From a virus, in the IMG/VR virus record IMGVR_UViG_3300031957_001692, positions 1 to 34,354 of that record: a DNA stretch of 34,354 nt; one strand, written 5' to 3'. Made by a program: the position numbers and the translations under genes. Positions 16,932 through 31,874 of this stretch are shown piece by piece (within the stretch, counting starts at the first letter, position 1; each line of letters starts with the position of its first letter). Under the pieces are notes generated by a model that saw only the letters and a program-made list of their open reading frames with translations, was not told the origin of the DNA and did not search any database.

Positions 16932-17422
16932 TAGTTGATGTATATGATGATGCGTTCTCCCCAGATCTGCATGAAGAAATATTAGAATACTGTCAGAGTC
17001 CTACATGTGGATATCTGTGTGGTGAAAGTGATGAAGTTGGTCTACCCCCAACTGGATTAGCACACTACCTTCCTGAAGATTCTTTTCTTCGTCTCAAAAT
17101 TTTGAATGAAATTTGGGATAAAGTTCCAGAGATGCAAAAATTAAAGTGCTATCAAGCATACTTTAATCTGTTTGTCCCTGGAGAAATTCCATTCTTTCAT
17201 CAAGACGATGATGAAGATGCCAATGGAATCACAGCATTGTACTATCCACAGGGTGATTGGAAACTTGATGATGGAGGAGAAACTCAATTCGTACTAAACA
17301 ATGCTATCAATGGCATTCCACCTATTACAAATCGTTTAGTTCTATTTGATGCTCACATTCTTCACCGTGCCACAAGTTTCCGTGACCGTCATCGATTTAC
17401 TCTTGCACTAAAGTTTCGATAA
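16928..17422 (+). CDS. 2-oxoglutarate/Fe(II)-dependent oxygenase
   Basis: 164 aa, a compact double-stranded beta-helix enzyme. The iron-binding facial triad is visible: FHQDDD (His91, Asp93) and LHRATSF (His146), with RHRFTLAL holding a likely 2-oxoglutarate-binding Arg (Arg156). Enzymes of this prolyl-hydroxylase-like type are common in cyanophage genomes and hydroxylate proteins or small molecules using O2 and 2-oxoglutarate. The substrate is unknown. It overlaps the gene before it and is followed by a late motif at its 3' end. Confidence 0.9.
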   Translation: MIVDVYDDAFSPDLHEEILEYCQSPTCGYLCGESDEVGLPPTGLAHYLPEDSFLRLKILNEIWDKVPEMQKLKCYQAYFNLFVPGEIPFFHQDDDEDANGITALYYPQGDWKLDDGGETQFVLNNAINGIPPITNRLVLFDAHILHRATSFRDRHRFTLALKFR

Positions 17423-17425
17423 ATA
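17419..17425 (+). promoter_or_regulatory. T4-type late promoter motif ATAAATA
   Basis: ATAAATA overlaps the TAA stop of the 2OG oxygenase (CGATAAATAG) and lies 25 bases before the ATG at 17451. It would transcribe the Ala/Pro-rich gene late. Confidence 0.6.
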
Positions 17426-17450
17426 GATTGAGACATTCCGCATGATAAAC

Positions 17451-17654
17451 ATGGCTACTAAAAAGTCGTACTCTGCCGCTAAACCTGCTGCTCCTTCAAC
17501 ACCAGCACCTGTAGCTGCTCCTTCTGCTCCCGCCGCCGCTGCCGCGCCTGCTGAAACTGCCGCTCCTGCATCGAGTGATTGCCCTAAGTGTGATGAACTT
17601 GAAGTAAGGCTTGCTAGAATTGAAAAGTATCTGGACAAGAAATTTGGTTTCTGA
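17451..17654 (+). CDS. Ala/Pro-rich small protein with C-terminal coiled-coil
   Basis: 67 aa from the ATG at 17451 (MATKKSYSAAK); an ATG at 17442 would add three residues. Residues 8-44 are nearly all Ala and Pro with a few Thr/Ser, as in flexible linkers. CPKC follows, then a short helix, ELEVRLARIEKYLDKKFGF, that could trimerise. The late motif upstream and the terminator downstream make it a single-gene late unit. A virion accessory protein, such as a linker or fibre-associated peptide, is plausible but unproven. Confidence 0.65.
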   Translation: MATKKSYSAAKPAAPSTPAPVAAPSAPAAAAAPAETAAPASSDCPKCDELEVRLARIEKYLDKKFGF

Positions 17655-17687
17655 TTTTTCCTAAAAATTAGTGGCGCGTCCCATAGG

Positions 17688-17712
17688 GGGGTTGTTTCAA
17701 CCCCTTTTTTTT
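17688..17712 (+). terminator. Rho-independent terminator
   Basis: GGGGTTG (17688-17694), loop TTT, CAACCCC (17698-17704), then eight T residues (17705-17712). It ends the Ala/Pro-rich unit and separates it from the sugar cluster. Confidence 0.9.
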
Positions 17713-17720
17713 GCTACAAT
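17692..17720 (+). promoter_or_regulatory. Sigma-70-type promoter inside the terminator, probable sugar-cluster promoter
   Basis: TTGTTT (17692-17697), a 17-base spacer, TACAAT (17715-17720), 22 bases before the ATG at 17742. The -35 box lies in the terminator hairpin and the spacer includes its T-run. No other promoter is evident before the 13.6-kb cluster, so this is the best candidate for it. Confidence 0.5.
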
Positions 17721-17741
17721 TGAATTATACTATTCGCTCAA

Positions 17742-18656
17742 ATGATTAAAGTACATAGTATTGTCATGACTAGAAATGACGATCTAATTATTGACCACTG
17801 GTTAGAAAAACACATTAATGTTTTTGATAACATTGCAGTTGTAGATGGATCTGATGGTGACTTTACAGAAAATCTGTGCAAGAAGTATGGAATTCTATAC
17901 ACTAGAGATCCAGAACCCACACCAGAAAGACCGTTTCATGAACAGTATCTGAGAGAAGCAGCTTTTAATCTGCTGGTTGATGCTGGTGTGATGGAAGTTG
18001 GTGACTGGGTGGTATGTTCTATGGCAGACGAATGGTATTACCATGATCCAAAGAAGATTGTCAATTCTGGGGTGGAGCCTTGGGCAAATGTCATCTCCTG
18101 GAATCAACTAAATATCTTGCCACACCCAAGTGAGAAAGAAACGTTTCTCTCTTGTGCTGGTGATTACAATCCAACAGAAATTTTTAAACACTTCTGGGTA
18201 AGAGACAATTATAAGACTTGTTTTGAACCTAGAATGTTCAAGTATACTGGCACGGAAGTTTGGACACACATGATTCCATGGTGTGATAATCCTGTTGCTG
18301 GTAGGATTGAACCACTATCTCATAATGTAAAGTCTAGTCTTGTACCGACTTACTTCCACTACAAGGTGTTTGACTTAGATCCAGAGAAATACAAAGACGA
18401 TGGATTCGGACACTTTGAAAAGAGTAGACTGAACACTGGTCTTGGATATGCCAAGGCAATGGCACCGAGAACCATTGAAACTGTTGACGATTTGTTTTTT
18501 GATGAAGATAACATCTATTGTAATCTTGGTCGCGACGATGATGGAGGAGAATATTTACATGGGTATTGTATTAAAATACCTGACGATGGTATACTAGAGT
18601 CATTCACTCCTTACAATAATTTTGCCAACACTCCTGATCTTTTGTTAACTGTCTGA
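17742..18656 (+). CDS. GT2-like glycosyltransferase (first gene of sugar cluster)
   Basis: 304 aa. The N-terminus, [20 protein letters not shown], and [14 protein letters not shown] resemble the nucleotide-binding half of GT-A enzymes of the Glyco_tranf_2_4/GT92-like type. [15 protein letters not shown] contains a D-E-W motif in place of a classical DxD. The C-terminal third, with [16 protein letters not shown], suits a family of phage and bacterial transferases acting on surface glycans. Donor and acceptor are not known. It starts right after the terminator/promoter at 17688-17720 and one base separates it from gmd. Confidence 0.75.
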
Positions 18657-18657
18657 T

Positions 18658-19731
18658 ATGAAAAGAGCACTTATTACTGGAATTACGGGTCAAGATGGAT
18701 CGTACTTAGCAGAACTACTTCTTGAAAAAGGTTATGAGGTTCATGGCATCAAGCGTAGAAGTTCTTCATTCAACACTGATCGTGTTAATCATCTCTTCAG
18801 TAAAAATCCCCACTTCCATCTACACTTCGGTGATCTTACCGACTCCACCAACATCATCCGATTGATTCAACTGATTCAACCAGATGAGATCTACAATCTT
18901 GGTGCTCAAAGTCACGTCAAAGTGTCATTTGAGACGCCAGAATACACTGCTAATAGTGATGCTATTGGCACTCTTCGTATCCTGGAAGCCATCAATCTGT
19001 TGGGTCTGACCAATAAGGTTCGGTTTTATCAAGCATCAACTTCCGAGATGTATGGTTTGGTGCAGGATGAATTGCAGAGTGAAACGACTCCGTTCTATCC
19101 ACGCTCTCCTTATGGTGTAGCAAAACTATATGCACATTGGATCACAAAGAACTACCGTGAGTCCTATGGTATCTTTGCTTGCTCTGGAATCTTGTTTAAT
19201 CATGAGTCTTTCCGACGTGGTGAGACGTTTGTGACCCGTAAGATTACCCGTGATCTATGCCGCGTCTCTCTTGGTAGATTAGAGACCCTTCAACTGGGCA
19301 ATCTAGAGGCAAAACGTGATTGGGGACATGCAAAAGATTATGTCCGCGCTATGTGGATGATGCTTCAGCAAGAAAAACCAGAAGACTATGTGATCTCTAC
19401 TATGCAACAGTATAGTGTTCGTTATTTTGTAGAACTTTCTGCAGAATATCTGGGCATGAATCTACGTTGGGAAGGTGAAGGCATGGATGAAGTTGGTATT
19501 GATGATAATACTGGCAAAGTCATTGTTAAAATCAGTCCTCGTTACTTCCGCGATGCTGAAGTGGATACTCTTCTTGGGGATTCTAGTAAAGCAAGAAGGG
19601 AACTTGGTTGGGAACCAGAGTATACTTTCAAAGATCTTGTAGGAGAAATGGTTTGCAGAGACATTACAATTGCTCGTAGAGAACAACTATTAGAAAATGA
19701 GGGGTATGGAAAATATGTCTATGAAGAATGA
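18658..19731 (+). CDS. gmd: GDP-mannose 4,6-dehydratase
   Basis: 357 aa (family about 345-375). It converts GDP-D-mannose to GDP-4-keto-6-deoxy-D-mannose, the branch point to fucose and colitose. The NADP-binding motif is [23 protein letters not shown] at the start of the extended SDR fold. STSEMYG supplies the catalytic Thr/Ser and Glu. [10 protein letters not shown] holds the YxxxK pair, and [18 protein letters not shown] is the family's substrate-loop signature. All the key residues I can place are present. Its 3' end overlaps the fucose-synthase-like gene, which uses its product. Confidence 0.96.
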
Positions 19732-20653
19732 AAAAATATATGTAGCAGGTCATAATGGTTTAGTTGGATCTGCTATCACTAGAGTTCTGAGAGAGAATGG
19801 ATACAAAAATGTTGTATTCAAATCAAGAACTGAATTAGATCTTCTCGATCGTGATGCAGTTAATGAATTTTTTAAGAAAGAAAAACCAGATCATGTTTTC
19901 TTGGCTGCTGCTAAATGTGGTGGCATCAATGACAATATCAAAAATCCTGTTCCATTCCTACTAGATAATCTTAGGATTCAGAATAATGTTATTGAGGCAG
20001 CACATAAGTATCATGTGAAGAAACTTATGTTCCTTGCTTCATCATGCATCTTCCCTAGAAACTCTGTTCAACCAATCAAGGAAGAATATCTTCTTACTGG
20101 TTCTCTTGAACCAACCAATCAGTATTATGCTGTCGCTAAGATTGCTGGTGTAAAACTATGCGAGGCATATCGAAAGCAGTATGGATGTAACTACATTTCA
20201 GTCAATCCTTGTAATGTGTATGGTCCAAAGGACAATTTCAGTAAAGAGACTGGGCACGTTATTGGTTCTTTGATTAGTAGATTTCATGATGCCAAGGAGA
20301 GAGACCTGAAGGAAGTTCAGTGTTGGGGTGCTGGCACTTCTATCAGAGAATTCATCTATGTTGAAGACTTGGCAGAGGCATGTATTCATATCATGGAGAA
20401 CTATAATGAAGCAGAAGTTATCAATGTTGGATGGGGCACTGGTATTACGATCAAGGACCTTGCAGACATCGTAAAAAATGTGGTAGAATATGAGGGCGAT
20501 ATTATCTGGGACACCAGTAAACCAGATGGAATGCCAAAGAAAGTCTTGTGCGTTGACAAACTAGATCAACTAGGATGGAGAGCACGAACAGACCTTGAAA
20601 CTGGCATCAAACTAACTTATGATTACTTTAAAGTAATGGAGACAAACAAATGA
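19715..20653 (+). CDS. fcl: GDP-L-fucose synthase or ColC-type epimerase/reductase
   Basis: 312 aa from the ATG at 19715. Other in-frame ATGs are at 19697, 19706 and 19721, and GAGGGG about 10 bases upstream favours 19715. The SDR enzyme ([16 protein letters not shown] motif, SSCIFP, YYAVAK with Yxxx[13 protein letters not shown] and GHV) matches GDP-fucose synthase, which epimerises C3 and C5 and reduces C4 of the Gmd product. The colitose enzyme ColC is a homologue acting on the 3-deoxy intermediate. The ColD-like enzyme directly downstream leaves both readings open. It overlaps gmd by 17 bases and the next gene by four. Confidence 0.9.
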
Positions 20654-21834
20654 ATCTTGACTGGCCTTTGATGAAAGATACGATCACGTTTAGAGATCGT
20701 TTGAAGATGGCAAAGTTTATTCTAACAACTTCTAGACTCACGAATGGACCTAGAGTTAAGAAATTTGAAAAGGAATGGAGTGAGTGGCTTGGTGCCGATC
20801 ACTCTTTGTTTGTCTCCTCTGGTAGCACAGCAAATTATCTCTTGCTCGCTGCTGTCAAAGAAAATTATGGTCTTCAAGATGGTGATAAAGTTCTTGTCCC
20901 CGCTTGTACTTGGATGACAAATGTAGCACCAGTCATTCAACTGGGTCTACAACCTATCTTCTGTGACATCAATCTCGAAAACTTTAGTTTTGATATCGCA
21001 GATCTAGACTATATCAAAGACTTACATCCAGATATTAAGGTTGTTTTTGTCTCTCATTTGCTTGGTTTCCCTGGAGACAATGAAATAATTGAGAGCATGT
21101 TTCCCAATGCATACATCCTTGATGATGTATGTGAATCCCATGGTTGTCTTGATCTTGATTTTGAAAAAGTAGGTAGCAATTCCATTGGTTCTACTTTTAG
21201 TTTCTACTTTGGACACCACATGACCACTATTGAGGGTGGTATGGTATCAACCAATAGTCCTTCTCTGTATGAATTGATGCGTATGAAGCGCAGTCATGGA
21301 CTTGCTAGAGAATCTTCTCCAGATAGGTTTGACATCTACAAAAATCAATATAAGGATGTTGATGACAAGTTTATGTTCGTGACTGATGGATATAACTTCC
21401 GTAATCATGAGGTATGTGCCGTTCTGGGTAGTTCACAATTAAAGAGACTGGATAAAATGATTGCTATCCGTCGTCAGAACTATGATTATTTCTTAGATAG
21501 ATTACAATGCCTTGATGATTTGTTTCATATGCCAGCACTGGACTTTGAAACAAATAGTAGTTTTTGTTTCCCACTGGTTGCAAAGGATCATGACACTTCT
21601 ATTCGTGTCAAGACAGTTCTTAATTGCTCTGGTGTAGAAAGTCGCCCAATTGTTAGTGGCAATCTTCTCCGTCACCCTTTCCTTAAGGGTTATTCCATAA
21701 CAACTGCAAAGCAAGACGGACTTCTCAATGTGGATATCGCTCATAACAACGGTGTCTATATGGGTAACAGTCATTTTGTAGACAAACGAATGATTGCTAG
21801 GTTGTTTGACGCGATCGAAGACAATGTTGTTTGA
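20650..21834 (+). CDS. ColD/RfbH-type PLP-dependent 3-dehydratase (Lys-to-His DegT family)
   Basis: 394 aa with the DegT/DnrJ/EryC1/StrS fold: SSGSTAN (phosphate contact), ILDDVCESHG (Asp contact to the pyridine), ESRPIVSGN and GVYMGNSH near the C-terminus. In the aminotransferases the motif S-F-x-x-x-K-N-x-T-T-G-E-G-G holds the Schiff-base Lys. Here it reads SFYFGHHMTTIEGG, with His189 at the Lys position (codon 21214-21216). This substitution is the hallmark of ColD (GDP-4-keto-6-deoxymannose 3-dehydratase) and RfbH-type enzymes, which deoxygenate C3 instead of aminating. With Gmd upstream, GDP-4-keto-6-deoxymannose is the expected substrate, leading to GDP-colitose-type sugars. Confidence 0.88.
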   Translation: MNLDWPLMKDTITFRDRLKMAKFILTTSRLTNGPRVKKFEKEWSEWLGADHSLFVSSGSTANYLLLAAVKENYGLQDGDKVLVPACTWMTNVAPVIQLGLQPIFCDINLENFSFDIADLDYIKDLHPDIKVVFVSHLLGFPGDNEIIESMFPNAYILDDVCESHGCLDLDFEKVGSNSIGSTFSFYFGHHMTTIEGGMVSTNSPSLYELMRMKRSHGLARESSPDRFDIYKNQYKDVDDKFMFVTDGYNFRNHEVCAVLGSSQLKRLDKMIAIRRQNYDYFLDRLQCLDDLFHMPALDFETNSSFCFPLVAKDHDTSIRVKTVLNCSGVESRPIVSGNLLRHPFLKGYSITTAKQDGLLNVDIAHNNGVYMGNSHFVDKRMIARLFDAIEDNVV

Positions 21835-22597
21835 TGTATCTACTACTGGTGGTCTAAAATCTGAAGGGCAGTATGAAAAAAAGGTTCATATTGCCTATGA
21901 TGATATTGGATATAGGTCTGAAGCAGATCTAAATGTTCTTGTTCAAATTGAACCACGGTCCATCCTGAATATACATGATAGTATCAAAATTAATCATGAA
22001 CTTTGGGATGTTATTCTAACCTGGGATGAAGAGCTACTCAAACTTCCCAATGCTTATCACTTTATATTTGGATCTTGCTGGATTGATTCAGAGACATACA
22101 CACCAAACAAACAAAAACACTGCTCTTTTATAACCAGTGATAAGTCTTATGCTCCAGGGCATAAGCTTAGGCAACAGGTATGGGATGGACTACAAGATGC
22201 TGAGTATTTGAATGGATTCTCTGTCATCAAACATAAATCTCCTCCTCGTATTCATAGCAAAAACTTCTTGTTTGAGACTGCTAAATATCACATAACTATC
22301 GAAAACGAGAAGACAAACAATTGGATTACTGAAAAGACAATTGATTGTTTCGCGTCTAAGACAGTTCCGATTTTGTGGGGCGCTCCCAACATCGGAGAAT
22401 ATTTCAACACAGATGGTATCATAATATTTGATACCATTGAAGATCTCAAGAATATACTTGACAATCTTGACGAATCATTTTATGATGAGAAGCAAGATGC
22501 TATTCAAGAAAATTATGAAAGGTCCAAAGCATACTGGGACTTTCATGCACGAGTAAGAACTTTTATTGAAACTTTTATTAGGAACAACAATGGCTGA
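21824..22597 (+). CDS. GT10-like alpha-fucosyltransferase
   Basis: 257 aa from the ATG at 21824, overlapping the ColD-like gene by 11 bases. The C-terminal half has the GT10 signature: HITIEN (157-161 region), WITEKTIDCFASKTVPILWG (about 167-186) and APNIGEYFN, matching the donor-binding region of alpha-1,3/4-fucosyltransferases. The N-terminal part is shorter than in eukaryotic or Helicobacter enzymes but ends in similar acceptor-domain patterns (HFIFGSCW). GT10 enzymes use GDP-L-fucose, and relatives tolerate GDP-L-galactose or GDP-colitose. All three donors could be made by this cluster. It is probably soluble or peripheral; no membrane segment is seen. Confidence 0.85.
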   Translation: MLFDVSTTGGLKSEGQYEKKVHIAYDDIGYRSEADLNVLVQIEPRSILNIHDSIKINHELWDVILTWDEELLKLPNAYHFIFGSCWIDSETYTPNKQKHCSFITSDKSYAPGHKLRQQVWDGLQDAEYLNGFSVIKHKSPPRIHSKNFLFETAKYHITIENEKTNNWITEKTIDCFASKTVPILWGAPNIGEYFNTDGIIIFDTIEDLKNILDNLDESFYDEKQDAIQENYERSKAYWDFHARVRTFIETFIRNNNG

Positions 22598-23633
22598 ACG
22601 ACAAAAGACTGCTTTGGTATGTGGTGCTGGTGGATTCATCGGTGGTCACATGGTTCGTCGTCTCAAAGCAGAGGGATATTGGGTACGTGGTGTTGATACC
22701 AAACGTCCTGAGTATTCTCAAACTGCTGCAGATGAGTTTATTACTGGAGACTTGACTGACATTCACTTGGTAGAACGTGTCACTAAGTTTTCTGGGTATC
22801 AAGGTAACTTCTATTACTCAACTCCTGAGACTATGAAGGAACCTTTCGATGAAATCTATCAGTATGCTGCTGACATGGGTGGTGCTGGATACATCTTCTC
22901 TGGAGAGAATGACTCTGAGGTGATGTTTAACTCTGCTACTATCAATCTTAACATCCTTCGTTGCCAACAACGTTTGAACGATCAGAAGAAAACAAATAAG
23001 ACCAAGATCTTTTACAGTAGTAGTGCTTGCATGTATCCTGAGTACGCTCAGGAAGAGACCGATTGTCCTGGACTGAGGGAAAGTGATGCTTATCCTGCTG
23101 GTCCTGACTCCGAATATGGTTGGGAGAAACTGTTCTCTGAGCGTCTGTATCTGACATACAATCGTAATCATGGTATCGATGTTCGTATTGCCCGATTCCA
23201 TAACATCTTTGGTCCTGAAGGAACTTGGTGTGGTGGTAAAGAGAAGTCTCCTGCTGCCATGTGCCGTAAGGTTGCTGAAGCTGCTGATGGTGGAGAGGTT
23301 GAGATCTGGGGAGATGGTGAACAGACTCGTTCCTTCCTCTATATTGATGAGTGTATCGAAGCTACCCGTCGCCTGATGGAGTCTGACTTCCTTGGACCTG
23401 TGAACATTGGTTCTGAAGAGATGGTCACTATCAATACTCTTGCTGAAACTGCTGCTAAGGTTGCTGGTAAGACTATTGTTAGAAAGCATATCGATGGTCC
23501 TTTGGGTGTTCGTGGTCGTAACTCTAACAATGATCTTATTAAAGAAAAACTTGGTTGGGAGTATACGATGACCCTTGAAGAGGGCATTCGTTACACCTAT
23601 CATTGGATTCAAGAGCAGATGGCAAACAAATGA
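22590..23633 (+). CDS. gme: GDP-mannose 3,5-epimerase
   Basis: 347 aa from the ATG at 22590, overlapping the GT10 gene by 8 bases. It resembles plant GME, which converts GDP-D-mannose to GDP-L-galactose (and GDP-L-gulose). The SDR motif is GAGGFIGG. SSSACMYPEY gives the catalytic Cys147, and YGWEK gives Tyr176/Lys180. FHNIFGPEGTWCGGKEKSPA holds Lys217. GDGEQTRSFLYIDEC, GSEEMVTIN and GVRGRNSNNDLIKEKLGWEY are near-copies of plant GME blocks. An extra stretch after the GDL motif (about 65-85) lengthens one loop. It is four bases from the next SDR gene (ATGA). Confidence 0.92.
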   Translation: MAERQKTALVCGAGGFIGGHMVRRLKAEGYWVRGVDTKRPEYSQTAADEFITGDLTDIHLVERVTKFSGYQGNFYYSTPETMKEPFDEIYQYAADMGGAGYIFSGENDSEVMFNSATINLNILRCQQRLNDQKKTNKTKIFYSSSACMYPEYAQEETDCPGLRESDAYPAGPDSEYGWEKLFSERLYLTYNRNHGIDVRIARFHNIFGPEGTWCGGKEKSPAAMCRKVAEAADGGEVEIWGDGEQTRSFLYIDECIEATRRLMESDFLGPVNIGSEEMVTINTLAETAAKVAGKTIVRKHIDGPLGVRGRNSNNDLIKEKLGWEYTMTLEEGIRYTYHWIQEQMANK

Positions 23634-24478
23634 AGGTTACAATTTTAGGTTCAAGCGGTCAGGTTGGAGCATATCTGACCGAATATCTTCGTAATAAGGG
23701 ACATGAAGTTACTGAGTATGATCAAGTTCTTGGTCCACAATATAACCTCACCGCTATTCCTAGCACATTTTTAGAATCAACTATCAAGAACTCTGATTTT
23801 GTTTTCTTTCTAGCGTTTGACGTTGGCGGTTCCAGATATCTGCAGAAGTATCAACACACTTACGAGTTCATCAACAATAATACTAGATTGATGGCAAACG
23901 CTTTTGATCAACTCCATAGATATAATGTTCCTTTCTTGTTTGCGTCATCTCAGATGAGCAACATGAGTTACTCTCCATACGGTGTGATGAAACGTGTTGG
24001 AGAACTGTACACGGAGGCAATGAAAGGTCTCATCGTTCACTTCTGGAACGTCTATGGTATTGAACATGACCCTGAAAAGTCACATGTAATCACTGACTTT
24101 ATTAGCAAAGGATTTGAGAGCGACACGGTTCAAATGTTGACCGATGGAACTGAGTCTAGACAGTTCCTCTACGCTGAAGACTGCTGTGAGGCATTAGAAA
24201 TTATCATGCTTAACTATCATGACTTGAAGACTCAAGATAAACTCCATGTCACCACACACAATTACGATACAATCAACGAGGTGGCTAGTGTCATCACTGA
24301 TTGTTTCAAGAGTATTGGAAAAGATGTAAAGTATCAACCTGCTGATACTGTGGACAGTGTTCAACTGGACAAGAAAAATGAAGCAGATCCATACATTCTA
24401 GACTGGTGGAAACCAAAAACCTCCTTGAGAGAGGGCATTGAAAAAGTATTCACGGAGATGAAAAATGCTAGGATTTAA
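23630..24478 (+). CDS. NAD-dependent epimerase/dehydratase (extended SDR), unknown substrate
   Basis: 282 aa from the ATG at 23630 (ATGA overlap with the gme gene). The Rossmann motif is GSSGQVGAYL. SSQMSNMSYSPYGVMK provides the catalytic Ser and the YxxxK pair. GTESRQFLYAEDCCEAL is the usual sugar-epimerase C-terminal signature. It is shorter and more divergent than Gmd, Fcl or GME. It may reduce or epimerise a product of those enzymes (for instance ColC's step), but nothing in the sequence fixes the substrate. Its 3' end overlaps the GT11 gene by 14 bases. Confidence 0.85.
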   Translation: MKVTILGSSGQVGAYLTEYLRNKGHEVTEYDQVLGPQYNLTAIPSTFLESTIKNSDFVFFLAFDVGGSRYLQKYQHTYEFINNNTRLMANAFDQLHRYNVPFLFASSQMSNMSYSPYGVMKRVGELYTEAMKGLIVHFWNVYGIEHDPEKSHVITDFISKGFESDTVQMLTDGTESRQFLYAEDCCEALEIIMLNYHDLKTQDKLHVTTHNYDTINEVASVITDCFKSIGKDVKYQPADTVDSVQLDKKNEADPYILDWWKPKTSLREGIEKVFTEMKNARI

Positions 24479-25325
24479 TGGACTAGGTAATAACGGCAGG
24501 TTGGGAAACCAGATGTTCCAGTATGCTGCTCTGAAAGGCATTGCAGCATATCATGACTATGGATATACTATTCCTCCTGGTGATATTGAAACGATCGATA
24601 ACTATGGGATTCATGAATGCTTCAAACTAACTAATGTTGGTGGGCATAACATTGGAATGCATCCTTCTAAACAATATGTTCAGGAAGGTCAGTTTCATTT
24701 CAATCAAGAATTGTTTGAGCGTTGTCCTGACAATGCAAATCTTTATGGATTCTTTCAAACGGATATGTACTTCCGTCATATTGAGAATGAAATCCGTCAA
24801 GACTTTGAATTTAAGAAAGGATATCTTGAACCATGTAAAGAGATGATTGATGGTCTTGATGAACGTCCCATCTTTCTTCATGTTCGCCGTGGTGATCCAA
24901 ACCTGGCCGACAAGCGTGGATTCAAATGGGCGTATGTGAATCTTCAGGATCAGCATCCTGTTCAACCTCTTGAGTATTATGAAGAAGCACTGAAGGAGTT
25001 TCCTGAGGATGTTCCTGTTATTGTATTCTCTGATTCTATTGAGTGGTGTAAAGAGCAAGAGTTCTTTGCTCCTGATAGGTTTATGTTCTCTGAAAGCACT
25101 GACACTCATGAGGATGGGGCTCTTCTGCCGTTTGTTGATCTCTGCCTGATGACACTGTGTGATGGTGGTATTACCGCCAACAGTAGTCTTTCTTGGTGGG
25201 GTGGATTTCTTCAGAAAGATCGCACCCGTAAACTTGTTTCTCCACAGATGTGGTTTGGTCCTGCATACGATAAGCATGACACAAAGGATCTGGTAAATGC
25301 TGATCGTAATTGGATTAGACTATGA
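24465..25325 (+). CDS. GT11 alpha-1,2-fucosyltransferase family
   Basis: 286 aa. The GT11 motifs appear in order: GRLGNQMFQYAALKGIA (residues 11-27), FLHVRRGD (about 137-144; the HxRRxD motif contacts GDP-fucose) and CDGGITANSSLSWWGGFL (about 232-249). YGFFQTDMYFRH and VIVFSDSIEWCKEQEFF complete the fold. GT11 enzymes form alpha-1,2-fucosyl links. The E. coli colitosyltransferase WbgN belongs to the same group, so a colitose donor is also possible here. It overlaps both neighbours (14 and 4 bases). Confidence 0.92.
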   Translation: MLGFNGLGNNGRLGNQMFQYAALKGIAAYHDYGYTIPPGDIETIDNYGIHECFKLTNVGGHNIGMHPSKQYVQEGQFHFNQELFERCPDNANLYGFFQTDMYFRHIENEIRQDFEFKKGYLEPCKEMIDGLDERPIFLHVRRGDPNLADKRGFKWAYVNLQDQHPVQPLEYYEEALKEFPEDVPVIVFSDSIEWCKEQEFFAPDRFMFSESTDTHEDGALLPFVDLCLMTLCDGGITANSSLSWWGGFLQKDRTRKLVSPQMWFGPAYDKHDTKDLVNADRNWIRL

Positions 25326-26017
25326 GTATTGCAATCCTTACTGCATCGATTGGAGCAAATGAGTTAGCAGAACCAACGAAAGATTTTCCTGGACATTACA
25401 GTGCAGACTATTATGCTTTTGTTGATGAATCAAAGATGGGTCAAGGGGGGATCTGGAACCGTCAGCTGGCATTCCAGTTTTCTTCTGACCCATCTTTTGG
25501 TAATAGGAGAAACGCAAAGATCTATAAGATCCTTCCTCACTTGTTTGTACCTGGATATGACTATTATATTTGGATCGACTCAACTCATCAAGTTGCCATG
25601 GATCCAAATCAAATCGTTAACACATATCTAAATGATTCTGATATTGCTCTCTTCAAACATCCTGAAAGAAACTGTGTAGCAGAAGAGGGAGAGTTGATCA
25701 AGCAGGTTAATTTTGATCATCATAATCTAGTACAGGAACAAATGGATTTTTACTTTGGATATGAAAAGTATCCAAGTAATAATGGACTCTATGAACTACC
25801 ATGCAGAGTGCAGCGTAACAGTAGAAAAATTCAAGAAGCAATGCTACTCTGGTGGGAACAGATCTGTATGTTCTCTTCTAGAGATCAGTTGAGTCTTCCA
25901 TATGTGCTATGGAAAAATGACATCAAACCTGCTATAATGCCAGGGAAGGCCAATGGTCTTTGGGAGAACGAGATTCTGCCACAATGTACAACATCGACAC
26001 ACTTGAGAAATGTGTAG
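25322..26017 (+). CDS. TOD1/MUCI70-like glycosyltransferase (DUF616)
   Basis: 231 aa. The stretches RRNAKIYKILPHLFVPGYDY, YYIWIDSTHQV, IALFKHPERNCVAEE and GLYELPCRVQRNS correspond to the conserved blocks of the DUF616/TOD1 glycosyltransferase-like family (PF04765). Its members in plants and bacteria act on surface or wall glycans. IWIDS may serve as the metal-binding DxD-like site. The sugar is unknown. It starts at the ATGA junction with the GT11 gene and overlaps the amidotransferase gene by eight bases. Confidence 0.8.
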   Translation: MSIAILTASIGANELAEPTKDFPGHYSADYYAFVDESKMGQGGIWNRQLAFQFSSDPSFGNRRNAKIYKILPHLFVPGYDYYIWIDSTHQVAMDPNQIVNTYLNDSDIALFKHPERNCVAEEGELIKQVNFDHHNLVQEQMDFYFGYEKYPSNNGLYELPCRVQRNSRKIQEAMLLWWEQICMFSSRDQLSLPYVLWKNDIKPAIMPGKANGLWENEILPQCTTSTHLRNV

Positions 26018-27335
26018 TTTTCTATTCACAAACAGAGATGCTTCAGATTTTCATTATGTAAACGAGTACATGGAAAAGCGTGGTCCTGATAAGACTACGA
26101 TTACTGAGGTGGGAGATCATACATTCGTCCACAATATCCTCAGTATTACTGGTGAGTTTAAACCACAACCATTTGTAAATCAAGAACGACAGATTGTTTG
26201 TGTTTACAATGGTGAGATCTATAATGCTGACAACTACTCTAGTGATGGTGAATCAATCATTCCTAGGTATCTTCAGTATGGATTTTTCTTTCCTATGCAT
26301 GTTGATGGTGAGTTTGCTATCTGTCTAGTAGACTATGCAAACAGAAAGATTCTTGTCACCACCGATACATTCTCTACCAAACCAATATGGATTGCTAGAG
26401 AAGATGGTGATATTGGCATCGCTTCCTATGAAAGTTCTCTTCTTCGTCTTGGATTTAAGAAACCTGAGAAGGTTCCTGCCAACACTAGGATGTTAATCGA
26501 CCTAGACACTTTTGAAACCAAAGACGTTGGCACTGTCTATAAATTTAAACTAGATCAAAACAAGAATACGTTTGATGATTGGAATGCTGCTTTTGCTGAG
26601 TCAATCAGAAAGAGAACTGCAAACCTAAGAGAACAATTGTTCATTGGTCTCTCTAGTGGATATGATAGTGGGGCTATTGCATGTGAACTTCTTAAGCAGA
26701 ATGTTCCACATAAAGCATATAGTCTGACAGGTACGGAGAACATGGATGTTCTTATGGATAGGAACTCTCTGTATAAGAAAGAATTTATTCATGACATCTC
26801 CACTCTTCCTGAACACAAACGTGCTCCACTGGTAAATCATATTGCCAGTTACGTTGAACCATTTAACAATACTATCCATTCCTCATCGTCTGATTACAAT
26901 GAGTATGGAACCACGATTGTTAATGATCATGGTGCAGGTTCTTTAGCATACATCTGCCTCAAGGCAAAGAAGGACAACAGGAAAGTATATCTTTCTGGGT
27001 CTGGTGCTGATGAAATCTTCTCTGACTATGGATTCAATGGTCAAAAAAAGTATGCACATAGCAACTTTGGGGGTCTTTATCCTGATGATCTATCTACTAT
27101 CTTCCCATGGGCATCTTTCTATGGTAGCTCTCAAGAAACTTACATTGCTAAAGAAGAACATGTTGCTGGATCTTATGGTCTAGAGACACGCTATCCATAC
27201 CTGGATAAATATGTCGTCCAGGAGTTTTTATCTTTAACTCCTGAACTCAAGAATTCAAAATACAAGTCGGTTCTTCATAATTACCTGACATTAAATCATT
27301 TCCCCTTCTCTGAAAACGAAAAAATTGGCTTCTGA
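26010..27335 (+). CDS. Asparagine-synthase-like glutamine amidotransferase
   Basis: 441 aa. The start MCSF gives Cys2 as the N-terminal nucleophile once Met1 is removed. VYNGEIYN and the following EFAICLVD complete a class II glutaminase domain (about 1-190). The C-terminal synthetase domain has a pyrophosphate loop, LSSGYDSGAIA, versus the usual LSGGLDSS, and GSGADEIFSDYGF. Asparagine synthetase makes Asn; homologues inside O-antigen clusters amidate uronic acids or other sugars. In a glycan cluster, sugar amidation is the better guess. The length is below the 500-600 aa of standard AsnB. It overlaps the DUF616 gene by eight bases. Confidence 0.88.
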   Translation: MCSFLFTNRDASDFHYVNEYMEKRGPDKTTITEVGDHTFVHNILSITGEFKPQPFVNQERQIVCVYNGEIYNADNYSSDGESIIPRYLQYGFFFPMHVDGEFAICLVDYANRKILVTTDTFSTKPIWIAREDGDIGIASYESSLLRLGFKKPEKVPANTRMLIDLDTFETKDVGTVYKFKLDQNKNTFDDWNAAFAESIRKRTANLREQLFIGLSSGYDSGAIACELLKQNVPHKAYSLTGTENMDVLMDRNSLYKKEFIHDISTLPEHKRAPLVNHIASYVEPFNNTIHSSSSDYNEYGTTIVNDHGAGSLAYICLKAKKDNRKVYLSGSGADEIFSDYGFNGQKKYAHSNFGGLYPDDLSTIFPWASFYGSSQETYIAKEEHVAGSYGLETRYPYLDKYVVQEFLSLTPELKNSKYKSVLHNYLTLNHFPFSENEKIGF

Positions 27336-27336
27336 T

Positions 27337-28146
27337 ATGGAAACTCTTACGCTTGGCGCTGAAATCCGCGATGGAAAATATGGTGGATGGAACTTCTCTA
27401 CTGAAGAGGAGTTTAGGTTTAGTAACCTAGGAACAAATATCTTCCACTTGGATCGAGTGATCCAAAAACTAGGTGAGAATAATACTTTTGTTGACCTAGG
27501 AGTTGACTATGGAGTATCTTCTCTCATCATGACCATGGATGCTGTTGAAAAAAACAACAAAGTCTATGGTGTTGACACACAATTTGGTCGCACTACGTTT
27601 GGTTTGTGGCAGTATCCCAACTACTTCATGATTCAAGGCGACAGTTCTAGTGTAGGTAAGTGTTGGGACACTGAAGAGTATGGTGAAGTTGATCTTCTGT
27701 TTGTAGATTCTATTCATGTTGCTCCACAAGTCTTAAGTGAACTGTATCATTGGTATCCTCACATCAAAGAAGGTGGTTATATCGTTTTCCACGATACTAA
27801 CTGGCCTACTGGGATGCATGACCTGACTTGGCATCCTGAAGTTAAGGAAAAAGATATTAAATGGGCACGTCCAGAGGAGGGTGTTGGTCGTTTCTTCCAA
27901 ATTGAAGATGCGTTTGAGCAGTCTGCTGGTAGTAAAGCATTTGTATTTGAAGATGATAATATTCGTGTTGAGCATCATCCTGAGTCTTGGGGTCTGACTG
28001 TTGTTCAAATTAAACAGAAAGTAGACTTCATTAATAACATCACTGACTGGGATCAAGTTTTTGAAGATCGCAATACAGTCTGTGGATACTTCAAGACTCC
28101 TGAAGAAACATTCATGCTCAATGATATTCGTGAGGAGGTTGAGTGA
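27337..28146 (+). CDS. SAM-dependent methyltransferase-like protein
   Basis: 269 aa from the ATG at 27337, one base after the preceding stop. NTFVDLGVDYGVSSLIMTMD matches motif I (glycine-rich SAM loop, with GVDYG in place of GxGxG). KVYGVDTQFG is the acidic motif II. VDLLFVDSIHVAPQVLSELY and LKEGG-like HIKEGGYIVFHDTNWP are motifs of the Methyltransf_24/cephalosporin-hydroxylase group. The likely role is O-methylation of a sugar in the glycan. The variation in motif I makes a non-methylating relative possible. It ends TGATG, sharing one base with the next gene. Confidence 0.8.
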   Translation: METLTLGAEIRDGKYGGWNFSTEEEFRFSNLGTNIFHLDRVIQKLGENNTFVDLGVDYGVSSLIMTMDAVEKNNKVYGVDTQFGRTTFGLWQYPNYFMIQGDSSSVGKCWDTEEYGEVDLLFVDSIHVAPQVLSELYHWYPHIKEGGYIVFHDTNWPTGMHDLTWHPEVKEKDIKWARPEEGVGRFFQIEDAFEQSAGSKAFVFEDDNIRVEHHPESWGLTVVQIKQKVDFINNITDWDQVFEDRNTVCGYFKTPEETFMLNDIREEVE

Positions 28147-29012
28147 TGCGTCACTTTCATGTATGCTGTGATGGTAGTTTTGGTAATAGATTGAGTGGAC
28201 TCATTGGTGGTCTCACTCTTGCCAGACTTGCTGGACTTCAACCAAAAGTAAGTTGGCCAAGCACTAACATGTGTCGAGCCCTGTTCCCTGACATTTTTGC
28301 CAGACCTTCTTTTGAAGTAGAGCATCATCGTCTCTCTCACTACTATGATCTTGCTGATAACTATGACTTTTTGTCTGTGAGTGATCAGCATATGGGTTTT
28401 TTTGGAAAAACATGCACTGATCCTGGTGGTATGGATGTCAACTCATTCAGACAGTGGATTAATGAACGAGAGAAGGATGTGTTTTACTACACTCCTCTGA
28501 TGTATGATTGGATTCCAGACGCAGAAGTTGATAAAACAATTCAACAAATTCAATATGATCAAAAGATCATGCTTAAACTTGCTTCATTCTTGAAGGAGAA
28601 TGAACTTGATGGTGGATACTATGGTATTCATATTCGCATGACTGACTTTGTGAACATTGAATCGTTTGATGTTGACAAATGGATTCACATCTGTAGAAAA
28701 AACTCTGATAAGAAGTTCTTTATTTGCTCTGATGATCCTGAGACAGAAGCAAGATTTGACGAAGTAGAAAATGCTTGCTATCTTAAGAAAGAGTTTAAGA
28801 CAGAGAAGCACATTCCAAATGGTGATTGGCATCATCCATACACTGATGGTGATGGAAGGCACTCTGTCTTTAATGTAGAGAGGGGTAGAGAGCATGTCCT
28901 AGAGGCAGTAATCGACTTCCTTCTACTCTCTATGTCTGATGCATTTAAGACTGGAGAGAAGAGTACATTTCTCAATATGGCAAGACGCATCGGAGAAGCG
29001 TACACAAAATGA
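28146..29012 (+). CDS. Possible fucosyltransferase-like protein (GT-B, HxR motif)
   Basis: 288 aa from the ATG at 28146 (the GTG at 28143 is less likely). FGNRLSGLIGGLTLARLAG at the N-terminus resembles the GNxL-type loop of GT11/GT23/protein O-fucosyltransferase enzymes. YYGIHIRMTDF corresponds to their H-x-R-x-x-D donor motif. KKFFICSDDPETEARF follows in the usual position. I infer GDP-sugar transfer; no exact family is assigned. The neighbours and the GDP-sugar pathway upstream support it. It overlaps the next gene by four bases. Confidence 0.6.
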   Translation: MRHFHVCCDGSFGNRLSGLIGGLTLARLAGLQPKVSWPSTNMCRALFPDIFARPSFEVEHHRLSHYYDLADNYDFLSVSDQHMGFFGKTCTDPGGMDVNSFRQWINEREKDVFYYTPLMYDWIPDAEVDKTIQQIQYDQKIMLKLASFLKENELDGGYYGIHIRMTDFVNIESFDVDKWIHICRKNSDKKFFICSDDPETEARFDEVENACYLKKEFKTEKHIPNGDWHHPYTDGDGRHSVFNVERGREHVLEAVIDFLLLSMSDAFKTGEKSTFLNMARRIGEAYTK

Positions 29013-29752
29013 AGTTTTCAATTGCAATTCCAACGTATGAAGCAAATGGGACTGGATCGGTTTTTTTAGAAGAACTGCTCCAGTCTATTCTTGCACAGAC
29101 ACTACAAGACTATGAAGTTGTTATCGCAGATCATTCCAAAGATGATAAGATTTTAAATCTGTGTGAAAAGTATTCAAGGAAGATGCGAATCAGATATGTT
29201 CGTAACTTCTATAACCGTGGCAATGGACCAGCAAATACAAACGTTGCTATTGCACATTGTACGGGTGACTACATAAAGATCATGTTTTCGGATGATCTCT
29301 TTGTCAGTAACAAAGCATTGGAACTCATCGCTGAGTGCCATGACAGCACGGGGGCTGGTTGGATTGTTACTGGATTTAATCATACATCTGATGGTAAAAA
29401 CTTTTACCGTCCGATGGTCCCTCGTTGGTCGGAGCATCTCCTGGAGGGTCAGAACTTTATGGGCGGACCCTCTATTGTCTCTATGAGACGAGAATCAGCA
29501 GAAATGTTTGATCCCAAATGTAGTATGTTGATGGATACAGATTTCTATCATCGTATGCGTATGAGAAATAAAATGCCTGTCATCTTAGAAGACATTCTAG
29601 TGTCAAGTCGTGAGGGTGACTATCGGGTTTCTGCTAACTTGAATATGAATATTGTTTGTGAACATGAAGAAGGAAACTGGGAAGCAAATGATAAAGAATT
29701 GGAGTATGTAACGACTAAACACGAAAACAGTAGAACTTATCCAGATGAATGA
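29009..29752 (+). CDS. Family 2 glycosyltransferase
   Basis: 247 aa with a classic GT2 start, FSIAIPTYEANGTGSVFLEE, then LLQSILAQTLQDYEVVIADH, YVRNFYNRGNGPANTNVAI and KIMFSDDLFV (the metal-binding D-D). GGPSIVSMRRESAEMFDP and LMDTDFYHRM supply the later acceptor-side motifs. It is soluble, with no membrane helix, so it acts in the cytoplasm on a glycan or lipid-linked acceptor. It overlaps both neighbours by four and eight bases. Confidence 0.92.
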   Translation: MKFSIAIPTYEANGTGSVFLEELLQSILAQTLQDYEVVIADHSKDDKILNLCEKYSRKMRIRYVRNFYNRGNGPANTNVAIAHCTGDYIKIMFSDDLFVSNKALELIAECHDSTGAGWIVTGFNHTSDGKNFYRPMVPRWSEHLLEGQNFMGGPSIVSMRRESAEMFDPKCSMLMDTDFYHRMRMRNKMPVILEDILVSSREGDYRVSANLNMNIVCEHEEGNWEANDKELEYVTTKHENSRTYPDE

Positions 29753-30569
29753 CTTAAGTAATGCTACGTTTATCATGCCTCTCAGGATTGAGAGTCAGGA
29801 TAGATTGCGAAATATTATTCTTAGTCTCAGTTACCTCTTGAATAATTTCAAGACGAATGTTATAATACAAGAGGTTGATACTGATTCAAAGTTTCAACAA
29901 TATGCTGCACCTGAATTGGAGAAACTAGTCCCTGACCTGTCTCCTATCACTCTTCTCTTTGAGGAGAGTGAAGAACCTATCTTTCATAGGACTAGGATTC
30001 TTAATGATATGCTGCTTGAAAGTAAGACTGATGTCGTTGTCAATTATGATACTGATGTCATCTTCCCAATCAACAGTTATCTTCAGGCATATAACATGGT
30101 CCTGAATCGGGGATATGATCTTGTCTATCCTTACGGTCAAGGTGAGTGGCAACAAAAAGTTCAACTGTATCCAGAGTTGATGAGTAAGTTTATTGAGTCT
30201 GGATACAAGTGGGAAGTTCTTAGTGAAGGAGAGCATAACGAACAGTCCACCTCAGATCATGGGTGGGCTCAGTTCTTCAATCGTAAGTCTTACATTGAAG
30301 GTGGTATGGAGAATGAAGAGTTTGTCTCTTATGGTTACGAGGACAATGAAAGAGTCTATAGATTTGAGACCTTAGGTTATAAGGTTGGTAGAGTCGATGA
30401 TCAAATCTTTCACCTTGAACATGCAAGAACATTTAACTCTTGGTTCAGCAATCCACACATCGGAAATAACAAAGATCTCTACGAAAAAATCAAGACTCTT
30501 AATAAAGAGAAACTAAAAGATTACTACAGTACAGTTGATTACATCAAAAACAGAAATGGAAAAGAATAA
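29745..30569 (+). CDS. GT2/GT7-like glycosyltransferase
   Basis: 274 aa. TFIMPLRIESQDRLRNIILS resembles the N-terminus of GT-A enzymes, and VVVNYDTDVIFP carries a DTD metal motif (about residues 98-109). The C-terminal end has EEFVSYGYEDNERVYRFETL-type sequence, as in the C-terminal domain of galactosyltransferases (Glyco_transf_7C), where the E-D-N-E region binds the acceptor. The donor is unknown; a galactose-type sugar is one option. It overlaps the next gene by 14 bases. Confidence 0.82.
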   Translation: MNDLSNATFIMPLRIESQDRLRNIILSLSYLLNNFKTNVIIQEVDTDSKFQQYAAPELEKLVPDLSPITLLFEESEEPIFHRTRILNDMLLESKTDVVVNYDTDVIFPINSYLQAYNMVLNRGYDLVYPYGQGEWQQKVQLYPELMSKFIESGYKWEVLSEGEHNEQSTSDHGWAQFFNRKSYIEGGMENEEFVSYGYEDNERVYRFETLGYKVGRVDDQIFHLEHARTFNSWFSNPHIGNNKDLYEKIKTLNKEKLKDYYSTVDYIKNRNGKE

Positions 30570-31368
30570 ATCAGCACCCAAACTCAAGGGATTTCCACAT
30601 GTTCTATGGATCAACCTAGACTCTCAGGCACATCGTCGAGAGTTTCAGGAAGAGCAGTTTGCTTATTGGGAAGTAGACAATACTAGAATATCTGGTATTG
30701 ATGGTAGAGATGATGATCCTTCTGTATATCTGAAGGGTACGATTCCTCCTAATGTGAATCAGGGAGAGATTGGTTGCTGCCTGTCTCATCTTAAAGCAAT
30801 CAAATACTTTATTGAGGAAACTGATTGGGATGAAGTGATCATCGCTGAAGATGATTTGATGCTAGACACGGTGAAGTTCTGGCCATTCTCTTGGAAAGAA
30901 ATTAGTGATTACTTCCCATACAACTTTGATTGTATGCAACTGTCTATCATTAATCCTGCTGCTGTCTACGCTGTCCTGCACAACAGATTTGTAAATGATT
31001 TTTCTGCTGCTGTTTATGTCATCACTCGTCATCATGCACAGAAAATCTATAAGCATCACATTCTAGGTGATAAGTACCGCATTGATCAGGACATCAGACC
31101 TCGTGCTGTGTCAGAAGACCTTGTATTTGAGAGCGGAAAGTGCTATGCTATGCCTCTATTTCTATATCGCTTGGACATGGGTTCATCAATTCATCCTGAG
31201 CATATTGAAATATTCCACAGAGCCAGTTACAATGGTGTTGCTCAGTTCTGGAACGAGTCAAACAAGATTGAAGATTGGAAATCGTTGATGAACTGGGATG
31301 CATACATGGGCAGACTTCCACCTGGGTTTGATGTAAACGGTCCTATTAAACAAGAGGAGCAACAATGA
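30556..31368 (+). CDS. GT25 LPS-type glycosyltransferase
   Basis: 270 aa from the ATG at 30556. The GT25 (LPS core/collagen galactosyltransferase-like) pattern is clear: VLWINLDSQAHRREFQEEQF, RISGIDGRDDD, GEIGCCLSHLKAIKYF and EVIIAEDDLML (DD metal motif). FSAAVYVITRHHAQKIYKH and VSEDLVFESGKCYAMPLFLY follow in the usual order. GT25 enzymes add galactose or similar sugars to LPS. It is the last enzyme of the cluster; its stop overlaps the small gene at 31365 (ATGA). Confidence 0.92.
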   Translation: MEKNKSAPKLKGFPHVLWINLDSQAHRREFQEEQFAYWEVDNTRISGIDGRDDDPSVYLKGTIPPNVNQGEIGCCLSHLKAIKYFIEETDWDEVIIAEDDLMLDTVKFWPFSWKEISDYFPYNFDCMQLSIINPAAVYAVLHNRFVNDFSAAVYVITRHHAQKIYKHHILGDKYRIDQDIRPRAVSEDLVFESGKCYAMPLFLYRLDMGSSIHPEHIEIFHRASYNGVAQFWNESNKIEDWKSLMNWDAYMGRLPPGFDVNGPIKQEEQQ

Positions 31369-31532
31369 AACGGAACATCGTAAAAAAGGAATTCAAAAAG
31401 ACTGATAAAAAAGGTCATGAAGAAACTTGGGAGTGGGATGAAACCCCAGAGGTTCGTGCTGCTCTCTTAGAGCTTCAAAAAACTATTAGTAAACTAGAAG
31501 CACAAGCACCTGATTACGGAGTTGGTAAATGA
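31365..31532 (+). CDS. Small hypothetical protein (55 aa)
   Basis: An ATGA overlap with the GT25 stop opens a frame ending TGA at 31530-31532. The product starts MKRNIVKKEFKKTDKKGHEE and ends LEAQAPDYGVGK: a very basic N-terminus, a WEWDETPEV patch and a short helix. It is unrecognised. Both ends are coupled to neighbours, and no other frame is better, so it is probably real. Confidence 0.7.
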   Translation: MKRNIVKKEFKKTDKKGHEETWEWDETPEVRAALLELQKTISKLEAQAPDYGVGK

Positions 31533-31828
31533 CACAACCACAACCAATTCAGGGACATCCATACCTTGGACCTGATCAAACGTATGAAAAAGCACGTCGC
31601 GACCGACTTGCTGATGTGATTGGTGAGTATCTTAATGATGAGAATTGTGATTCTCGTCAAATATATGAAGAGATTCTTACCGAAATCAATGATTGGAATG
31701 ACTATCACAACAGGTTTGCGAGGAAAAGTGAACAACTTCGTGAGTTCATGATGGGTAGTACGGTCTTTAATCTTGATGATATGGCTAAAGATTATTCGGA
31801 TATCCTCACGGGTCTTGACAACTCATGA
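31529..31828 (+). CDS. Small acidic hypothetical protein
   Basis: 99 aa (MTQPQPIQGHPYLGPDQTYE and onward). It is Asp/Glu/Tyr-rich and mainly helical, of a type common in cyanophages between operons. It has no recognised domain. Its start overlaps the 55-aa gene (ATGA). A TTGACA -35 box lies within its last codons (31815-31820), so a promoter for the downstream beta-barrel gene overlaps its 3' end. Confidence 0.75.
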   Translation: MTQPQPIQGHPYLGPDQTYEKARRDRLADVIGEYLNDENCDSRQIYEEILTEINDWNDYHNRFARKSEQLREFMMGSTVFNLDDMAKDYSDILTGLDNS

Positions 31829-31842
31829 GATTCAGGTATACT
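31815..31842 (+). promoter_or_regulatory. Composite promoter, sigma-70 part
   Basis: TTGACA at 31815-31820 inside the preceding gene, a 16-base spacer, then TATACT at 31837-31842. The -10 shares its last two bases with the late motif CTAAATA (31841-31847), so early and late start sites would be only a few bases apart. Confidence 0.7.
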
Positions 31843-31847
31843 AAATA
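31841..31847 (+). promoter_or_regulatory. T4-type late promoter motif CTAAATA overlapping a sigma-70 -10
   Basis: CTAAATA directly adjoins TATAC in TATACTAAATA. The same layout recurs upstream of psbA (TATTATAAATA). It would add late transcription of the beta-barrel gene through a leader of about 165 bases. Confidence 0.6.
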
Positions 31848-31874
31848 ACTGGACGTGACTACTGTTGCGTTTTA

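Follow-up and report, generated by a model that had tools for sequence, protein, structure and literature searches.

A fifteen-gene cluster for fucose-like sugars in a T4-like cyanophage: a candidate virion glycosylation pathway

Introduction

Clusters of glycan genes have long been known in cyanophages; their use is unproven, and in print even the idea that they are ‘stuffer DNA’ has been left open. The lipopolysaccharide (LPS) clusters of P-SSM2, S-SSM7 and S-SM2 share nucleotide-sugar epimerases and many glycosyltransferases near hli/psbA (partly after passages of PMC3037559). For the cell-wall cluster of S-SCSM1, passages of PMC9602691 describe GMD, Fcl and GME together with three fucosyltransferases, as genes for fucose and L-galactose. 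Among eukaryotic viruses, the chlorovirus PBCV-1 has its own GMD and GMER, and its capsid protein bears fucose and O-methylated rhamnose (passages of PMC4691112). But where do the sugars of a cyanophage cluster go? Are they added to the host surface or to the virion itself? Here we analyse a cluster of 15 genes at positions 17742-31368 of a stretch of viral DNA of 34,354 bases (the entire IMG/VR virus record IMGVR_UViG_3300031957_001692, hereafter the window). Its enzymes would turn GDP-mannose into L-sugars and these into a short glycan, for which newly made virion protein is the destination we favour, at a little under an even chance. The cluster is of a kind already known from P-SSM2, S-SSM7 and S-SCSM1, in an unusually rich version. 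New are the ColD branch, the 15-gene order, structural support for a third transferase, a test of selection and a search for export genes.

How does the locus compare with the described clusters? As here, a GT25 homologue closes the clusters of P-SSM2 and S-SSM7. A first, sequence-only reading of the window had proposed a comparison with P-SSM2; sugar enzymes, glycosyltransferases and the GT25 end are indeed shared, but the P-SSM2 stretch compared has no ColD or GME match, and that of S-SSM7 has no ColD, GMD or Fcl match. S-SCSM1 has homologues of GMD, Fcl, GME, GT11, GT2, GT-A, the TOD1-type enzyme, asparagine synthase, NodZ and GT25, but no match to ColD, GT10, the short SDR 254, or the genes at 17742 and 27325 in the 32 kb compared. 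In ACG-2014f, GMD, Fcl and ColD likewise follow each other in this order, between nrdB and psbA; its ColD (59% identical) is annotated as an aminotransferase or hypothetical protein, and in the 47 kb compared there is no match to GME, GT10, short SDR 254, TOD1 or asparagine synthase. The likeness to the colitose pathway (ColD structures 2gms and 3gr9, which we take to be from E. coli) lies in ColD homology with the active-site histidine. Unlike the E. coli pathway, the 15 phage proteins include no Wzx, Wzy or GDP-mannose synthesis family, and phage ColDs group apart from most cellular ColDs. With PBCV-1 the cluster has in common virus-encoded GDP-fucose enzymes, glycosyltransferases and methylated sugars (passages of PMC4691112), but PBCV-1 is a eukaryotic virus with a capsid glycan, and this phage has no known glycoprotein. 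As far as titles, abstract openings and term counts show, none of the papers listed by literature searches describes a colitose branch in cyanophages.

Predicted sugar branches from GDP-mannose

In the proposed pathway, GMD and a fucose synthase would convert host GDP-mannose to GDP-L-fucose; GMD, ColD and an Fcl/ColC-type reductase would yield GDP-colitose; and GME would yield GDP-L-galactose (or L-gulose). In the cytoplasm, eight soluble glycosyltransferases would assemble a short glycan, to be decorated by one methyltransferase and one amidotransferase and placed on newly made virion protein, an autonomous virion glycosylation as in PBCV-1. We infer these products from the gene families, which, like the selection on the genes, are observations. 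How firm is each branch? By its family match the product of 18658 is certainly GMD (Table 1). The Fcl-type protein reaches 435 bits with NF047922, under the equivalog cut-off of 500, and matches GDP-fucose synthetase 1bws at E 7e-96; its catalytic Tyr, Lys and His are kept in 68/68 relatives and its Cys in 65/68. In GME, C155, Y184, K188 and K227, presumably the catalytic positions after the plant enzyme, are present in all 101 relatives (duplicates included), and the predicted product is GDP-L-galactose (or L-gulose).

The ColD-like enzyme merits a closer look. Its closest solved structures are ColD (2gms, E 7e-53), and a histidine replaces the pyridoxal phosphate (PLP) lysine, aligning with the residue mutated to Asn in 3b8x. 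This histidine is kept in 91/91 relatives at 50% identity or more and also in 27/27 more distant homologues. The aminotransferase annotation found in ACG-2014f is unsupported, as His occupies the PLP-lysine position. A CDP-type (RfbH/E1) 3-dehydratase is less likely, with 192 bits against a cut-off of 423 for the RfbH model and E 3e-33 for the closest CDP-type structure. Overall similarity and the adjoining GMD are the reasons for assuming a GDP substrate, and the product of the branch is probably GDP-colitose. Is the ColD gene found in the right company elsewhere? Viral-contig scans, from which the best 80 of 247 ColD-related and the best 80 of at least 599 GME-related stretches were used, gave 154 viral loci after removal of five duplicates, a set picked by ColD and GME queries and not random. 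Of the 72 ColD loci with 3.5 kb upstream covered, 66 contain GMD and 49 an Fcl-type gene; in 42 of the 72, GMD lies on the strand of ColD and ends no more than 1.5 kb upstream of it.

Could the short SDR oxidoreductase at 23603 be a missing ColC? Its Y126 and K130 are kept in 40/40 relatives; it has no close solved relative (best PDB match E 3e-8). It occurs in 38 of the 154 loci, all with GME, and in none of 60 ColD loci lacking GME (50% identity), which speaks against this role; the sampling favours the SDR-GME pairing, since ColD and GME served as queries for retrieving the loci, and P-SSM2 departs from the pattern, having the short SDR and no GME match.

Two loci (L008 and L016) have GMD-ColD-GME clusters with no Fcl-type gene in the stretch covered, a second ColD-like protein of 443 amino acids and an open reading frame (ORF) resembling a thiamine pyrophosphate-dependent enzyme; these clusters perhaps lead to branched 3,6-dideoxy sugars.

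Where does the phage ColD come from? Among GTDB genomes (best 80 of 376 ColD relatives), three contigs from metagenome-assembled genomes (MAGs; L165-L167) carry ColDs 50-59% identical that fall in or beside the phage group, and the other 77 are at most 43% identical. One of the three, L165, a 16 kb contig in a Crocinitomicaceae MAG, has GMD at 69%, ColD at 59% and Fcl at 49% identity; it may be a phage contig that ended up in a bacterial MAG through binning. Three Prochlorococcus single-cell genomes (L201, L225, L237) have ColD-like genes of their own, at 37-38% identity. In a quick tree with 113 rows, 33 of them selected phage rows, phage ColDs stand apart from these three, so that the phage gene would not be a recent copy from those hosts; the phage/cell label takes two changes on this tree, which carries a long-branch warning.

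Glycosyltransferases and decorating enzymes

Eight soluble glycosyltransferases are predicted in the cluster, three of them from GDP-fucose-type families. GT10 (E 3e-12 with PDB 2nzw) and GT11 (matched in 101 phage records) are clear, which bears out the two fucosyltransferase families named from sequence. But what is the protein at 28143, suspected at the same time of being a third? It has no Pfam match at E 0.01 and no PDB sequence match at E 5; with the O-FucT family PF10250 it reaches E 0.022, below the cut-off. Its best AlphaFold model has pLDDT 71 and pTM 0.73 (the other four, 47-56), and the best match of that model is NodZ (Foldseek E 3e-7, TM 0.50; VIA-align Z 13.2, rmsd 4.6, 234 aligned). 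All of VIA-align ranks 1-43 are GDP-fucose transferases (NodZ/FUT8, GT-B fold; Z 13.2-10.1), so that a third, NodZ-like fucosyltransferase family is likely from the predicted fold, in line with the earlier suspicion. The sequence-only reading further supposed that the fucosyltransferases could accept all three sugars, which is a hypothesis. What we take to be the NodZ/GT23 fucosyltransferase motif, H-x-R-R-x-D, appears as H163-x-R165-M-T-D168, with Met instead of the second Arg; R165 is invariant in 7/7 rows. A viral-contig scan with this protein alone as query gave no relative; orthologues are present in loci fetched otherwise.

The enzyme at 29745 is a GT-A glycosyltransferase according to a confident model (pLDDT 90.6, pTM 0.90), matching chondroitin polymerase at E 1e-10 and TM 0.60. 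GT25, matched in 97 phage records, is the 3'-most of the matches to 15 families in all 23 loci that have it, and an orthologue of the gene at 17742 occurs in five of the 154 deduplicated loci. Methyl- and amidotransferases had also been proposed, and both are found (Table 1); the amidotransferase keeps its N-terminal Cys, and 8/8 homologue ORFs, two from one contig, start with MCSF. The cluster had been called dedicated to L-fucose-like sugars. Its L-sugar enzymes agree with this, but the word goes too far, as the 23603 SDR and the GT2, TOD1-type, GT-A and GT25 enzymes belong to families that are not fucose-specific.

Table 1. Cluster genes and the elements directly upstream, in window coordinates
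Feature	Position	Likely start	Strand	Basis
Possible degenerate wcaG RNA-like leader	17605..17685		+	RF01761 22.3 bits, gathering score 42
Intrinsic-terminator-like hairpin and T run	17685..17712		+	directly 5' of operon
GT2-type glycosyltransferase, weak match	17742..18656		+	PF13704 E 9.5e-5, 23.3 bits, cut-off 27.5
GDP-mannose 4,6-dehydratase (GMD)	18658..19731		+	NCBIfam TIGR01472 560 bits, equivalog cut-off 415
GDP-L-fucose synthase / ColC-type epimerase-reductase	19697..20653		+	NF047922, PDB 1bws
ColD-like PLP 3-dehydratase, probable colitose branch	20650..21834		+	DegT family; PDB 2gms E 7e-53
GT10 fucosyltransferase family	21794..22597	ATG 21824	+	PF00852 30.5 bits, cut-off 23.9
GDP-mannose 3,5-epimerase (GME)	22566..23633	ATG 22590	+	PDB 2c59 E 2e-90
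Short SDR oxidoreductase, T4-GC 254	23603..24478	ATG 23630	+	PF01370
GT11 fucosyltransferase family	24465..25325		+	PF01531 65.7 bits; phrog_2644
TOD1/MUCI70-type glycosyltransferase	25322..26017		+	PF04765 75.4 bits
Asparagine-synthase-like amidotransferase	26010..27335		+	PF00733 and PF13537
Methyltransferase (Methyltransf_24 / CmcI-like)	27325..28146	ATG 27337	+	PF13578 52.6 bits
NodZ-like (GT23-type) fucosyltransferase, likely	28143..29012	28146	+	predicted fold
GT2 glycosyltransferase	29009..29752		+	PF00535 66 bits
GT-A-fold glycosyltransferase (phrog_15655)	29745..30569		+	model; PF02709 19.3 bits, cut-off 23
GT25 glycosyltransferase, usual cluster 3' end	30535..31368	ATG 30556	+	PF01755 40.8 bits

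Gene order and selection

The 15 genes of the sequence-only reading are all there, as adjoining ORFs of 231-441 amino acids on the + strand with mostly overlapping ends; several of the TTG starts probably lie too far 5', by a few codons (Table 1 gives the likely ATG). Twelve of the 15 pass a Pfam gathering cut-off, and those at 17742 and 29745 match below it. Nucleotide-sugar enzymes and glycosyltransferases lie together in the nrdB-psbA region, by which a cyanomyovirus LPS/glycan cluster is recognised. Three viral contigs (L029, L033, L034) have all 15 genes in the same order at 55-81% identity; L029 and L033 are counted as one lineage since they are 95-100% identical to each other, and L087 duplicates the L034 contig. 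Two more, L086 and L088, have 14 genes (46-80% identity), without a 17742 homologue and with an extra GT11 before GT25. L037 has 14 genes up to the end of the stretch covered, and L036, which resembles it, stops after seven. In these relatives the cluster sits at the same locus and flanking phage genes are shared. An ordered cluster in several contigs argues that the arrangement is not chance. Are the genes also under selection? The Nei-Gojobori ratio of nonsynonymous to synonymous change (dN/dS) is 0.00-0.15 in 15/15 genes of the L029/L033 pair and 0.04-0.14 in 14/14 genes of the L086/L088 pair; these are point estimates without intervals, dS is small for many L029/L033 genes, and in pairs including the present record divergence is too great for dS to be reliable. 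Taken together, the intact residues, the low dN/dS and the shared gene order say that the operon works.

Destination of the predicted glycan

Does the phage bring its own export machinery? Because the record breaks off within psbA, absences were tested in larger related records. Flippase PF01943, Wzy_C PF04932, the initiating transferases PF02397 and PF00953, GtrA PF04138 and the ABC-2 membrane protein PF01061 match in 0/6 (the genomes of four isolates and two contigs, of 194 and 84 kb). For NTP_transferase PF00483, Wzz PF02706 and another flippase family, PF13440, the count is 0/8; the search covered these nine Pfam families and not others of the same functions, and controls were positive in 7 to 14 of 14 genomes. 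The earlier remark that no flippase, polymerase or chain-length gene is seen thus extends to eight Pfam families in the six or eight related records. The 15 cluster proteins hold no flippase, polymerase or Wzz of a Wzx/Wzy-type O-antigen system, and a simple hydropathy scan predicts no transmembrane segment in any of them, so that, with GtrA missing from the six records, Gtr serotype conversion, which takes a GtrA flippase and a membrane-bound GtrB, does not fit either. As no export family was found, the phage seems to rely on the host for GDP-mannose and for any export: it would bring sugar branching and transfer, and no known export system. Core-type glycosyltransferases also act in the cytoplasm and depend on host MsbA, and therefore the missing flippase cannot separate virion protein from LPS core.

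Is the glycan then placed on the virion or on LPS? The gene list fits virion-protein glycosylation and cytoplasmic LPS extension about equally well. We lean slightly to virion protein, since virion protein is synthesised entirely after entry and cytoplasmic enzymes cannot reach LPS that has been exported. The alternative, a serious one that we rate as quite possible yet short of probable, is that the enzymes assemble the glycan in the cytoplasm on new host LPS (on lipid A-core or on an intermediate linked to lipid) and that the host's own machinery exports it, which would alter the cell surface towards other phages (superinfection exclusion) or grazers. LPS core can be extended by soluble enzymes, and the three Prochlorococcus ColD-like genes suggest that such sugars may occur in host glycans. 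Passages of PMC7824862, PMC2984593 and PMC9602691 read these clusters as modifiers of the host cell surface, LPS or O-antigen; superinfection exclusion, raised again in the sequence-only reading, is already in print in the first two for P-SSM2-type clusters. According to a personal communication that a review passage cites, resistance to S-PM2 accompanies a change in LPS, and wcaG RNA is tied to exopolysaccharide genes (passages of PMC2864571). On the other side stand the missing initiating transferase, flippase, polymerase and GtrA families, the restriction of any change to LPS made after infection, and the separation of host from phage ColDs in the quick tree.

The equal fit to LPS and these published readings weigh against a glycan made of all the proposed sugars and placed on the virion, and so do several other points. 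GT25 is named in Pfam for LPS biosynthesis. No glycan on a cyanophage virion was found in the titles and abstract openings of the papers listed by a literature search. The ColD histidine, shared with distant homologues, marks a 3-dehydratase and not a GDP substrate. Of the 66 loci with GMD and ColD, 17 have no Fcl-type gene (at 40% identity or more) in the stretch covered. The sequence-only claim that L-fucose, colitose and L-galactose all come from GDP-mannose stands as far as enzymes for the branches are concerned, but fucose plus colitose is unproven because a single Fcl/ColC-type enzyme was found for the two. A literature search on phage-encoded glycosyltransferases and virions gave no paper, and one transcriptome paper, examined by terms, yielded nothing on phage LPS genes.

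Might the product be a diffusible small glycoside or secondary metabolite instead of a glycan on the surface or the virion? For a different cyanophage cluster, published passages propose a secondary metabolite, and an amidotransferase and a methyltransferase are present here; with eight glycosyltransferases, and no carbamoyltransferase or halogenase among the family matches of the 15 proteins, we regard this as unlikely. That the genes are non-functional ‘stuffer DNA’ filling a large head, an idea that Sullivan et al. 2010 leave standing, with such clusters found in larger cyanophage genomes (passages of PMC3037559), is contradicted by dN/dS far below 1 in every gene of the two close pairs tested, sits badly with catalytic residues nearly invariant across 40-101 relatives, conserved gene order and an RNA leader in many relatives, and is highly improbable.

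Virion-protein glycosylation, as favoured here, may reach beyond this record. We put forward, as a conjecture more doubtful than not, that some marine T4-like cyanophages are self-glycosylating, with GDP-fucose, GDP-colitose and GDP-L-galactose going into a phage-specific oligosaccharide on new virion protein. If true, this would parallel, in a bacteriophage, the capsid glycan of chloroviruses, with an operon led by wcaG RNA in many relatives. The predicted fucose, colitose and L-galactose are exact targets for mass spectrometry on virions and host LPS, which makes the old question directly testable.

Possible leader RNA and transcription signals

In cyanophages, wcaG RNAs precede exopolysaccharide genes (passages of PMC2864571). 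Is the present cluster led by one? The RF01761 match upstream of it has E 9.6e-4 in a single-family search and 0.049 in a whole-library scan of 421 bases, a stretch that also gives 22.8 and 22.3 bits with two unrelated families; a 20 kb scan leaves it unlisted at E 1. Its 3' hairpin (about 17648-17672) survives, and most of the 5' hairpin is lost. Judged from position and relatives, this leader is at best a degenerate wcaG RNA. The relatives were sampled as 35 chosen records: the present one, 30 other contigs and four isolates. The gathering score is exceeded in 22 of the 35 and some match at E 10 is found in 28; among control genomes 9/14 match at E 10, none above the gathering score. No isolate exceeds it either: S-SCSM1 (37.2 bits) and ACG-2014f (30.7) match near the cluster start, and P-SSM2 and S-SSM7 score at most 12.5 bits. 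Among the 22 records above the gathering score, the first ORF of at least 150 amino acids after the RNA is homologous to a cluster gene in 14 (with only 25% identity in one case); in five, a homologue of this kind comes second or third, and in three the RNA lies outside the stretch examined. The RNA of L029 (64 bits) ends 16 bases 5' of the first gene. Folding z-scores are -2.2 for the present leader, -0.55 for L029 and -3.6 for L086.

A second terminator-like hairpin lies 3' of the cluster, at 32411, and the hairpins on both sides fit one transcription unit; terminator-like sites number 16 against 11.9 (sd 3.5) in shuffles and promoter-like sites 68 against 55.7 (sd 6.8), both little above chance. 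A wcaG-type hairpin followed by a terminator-like hairpin and T run is seen in L086 (5946-6090) and in the present record (17648-17712), and transcription attenuation before the operon is possible. CTAAATA and TATAAATA, which we take to be late-promoter motifs, are both absent from 17442-17742. As a clue to timing these motifs were set aside: CTAAATA has nine matches, all on the + strand, a count equalled by 9/100 shuffles, and TATAAATA has two.

The record and its flanks

A nucleotide search with 15000-34354 matched 386 phage records, and almost all of their names contain Synechococcus, Prochlorococcus or cyanophage; the top listed matches span 7% of that stretch, at the psbA end. The translations read as T4-like (gp41-, gp61-, nrdA- and nrdB-like genes), and the order is T4-like genes, a tRNA-Arg, the sugar cluster, a PhotoRC-II RNA and the start of psbA. 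GC content is 0.37-0.43 over the whole record and 0.38-0.42 within the cluster. Directly 5' of the cluster lies a 2OG-Fe(II) oxygenase gene (16928-17422); a link to protein glycosylation was dropped, an orthologue being absent from the flanks of the seven syntenic loci examined. The PhotoRC-II RNA (33691-33786, 75.7 bits) lies upstream of psbA, an arrangement that passages of PMC9602691 report from other cyanophages.

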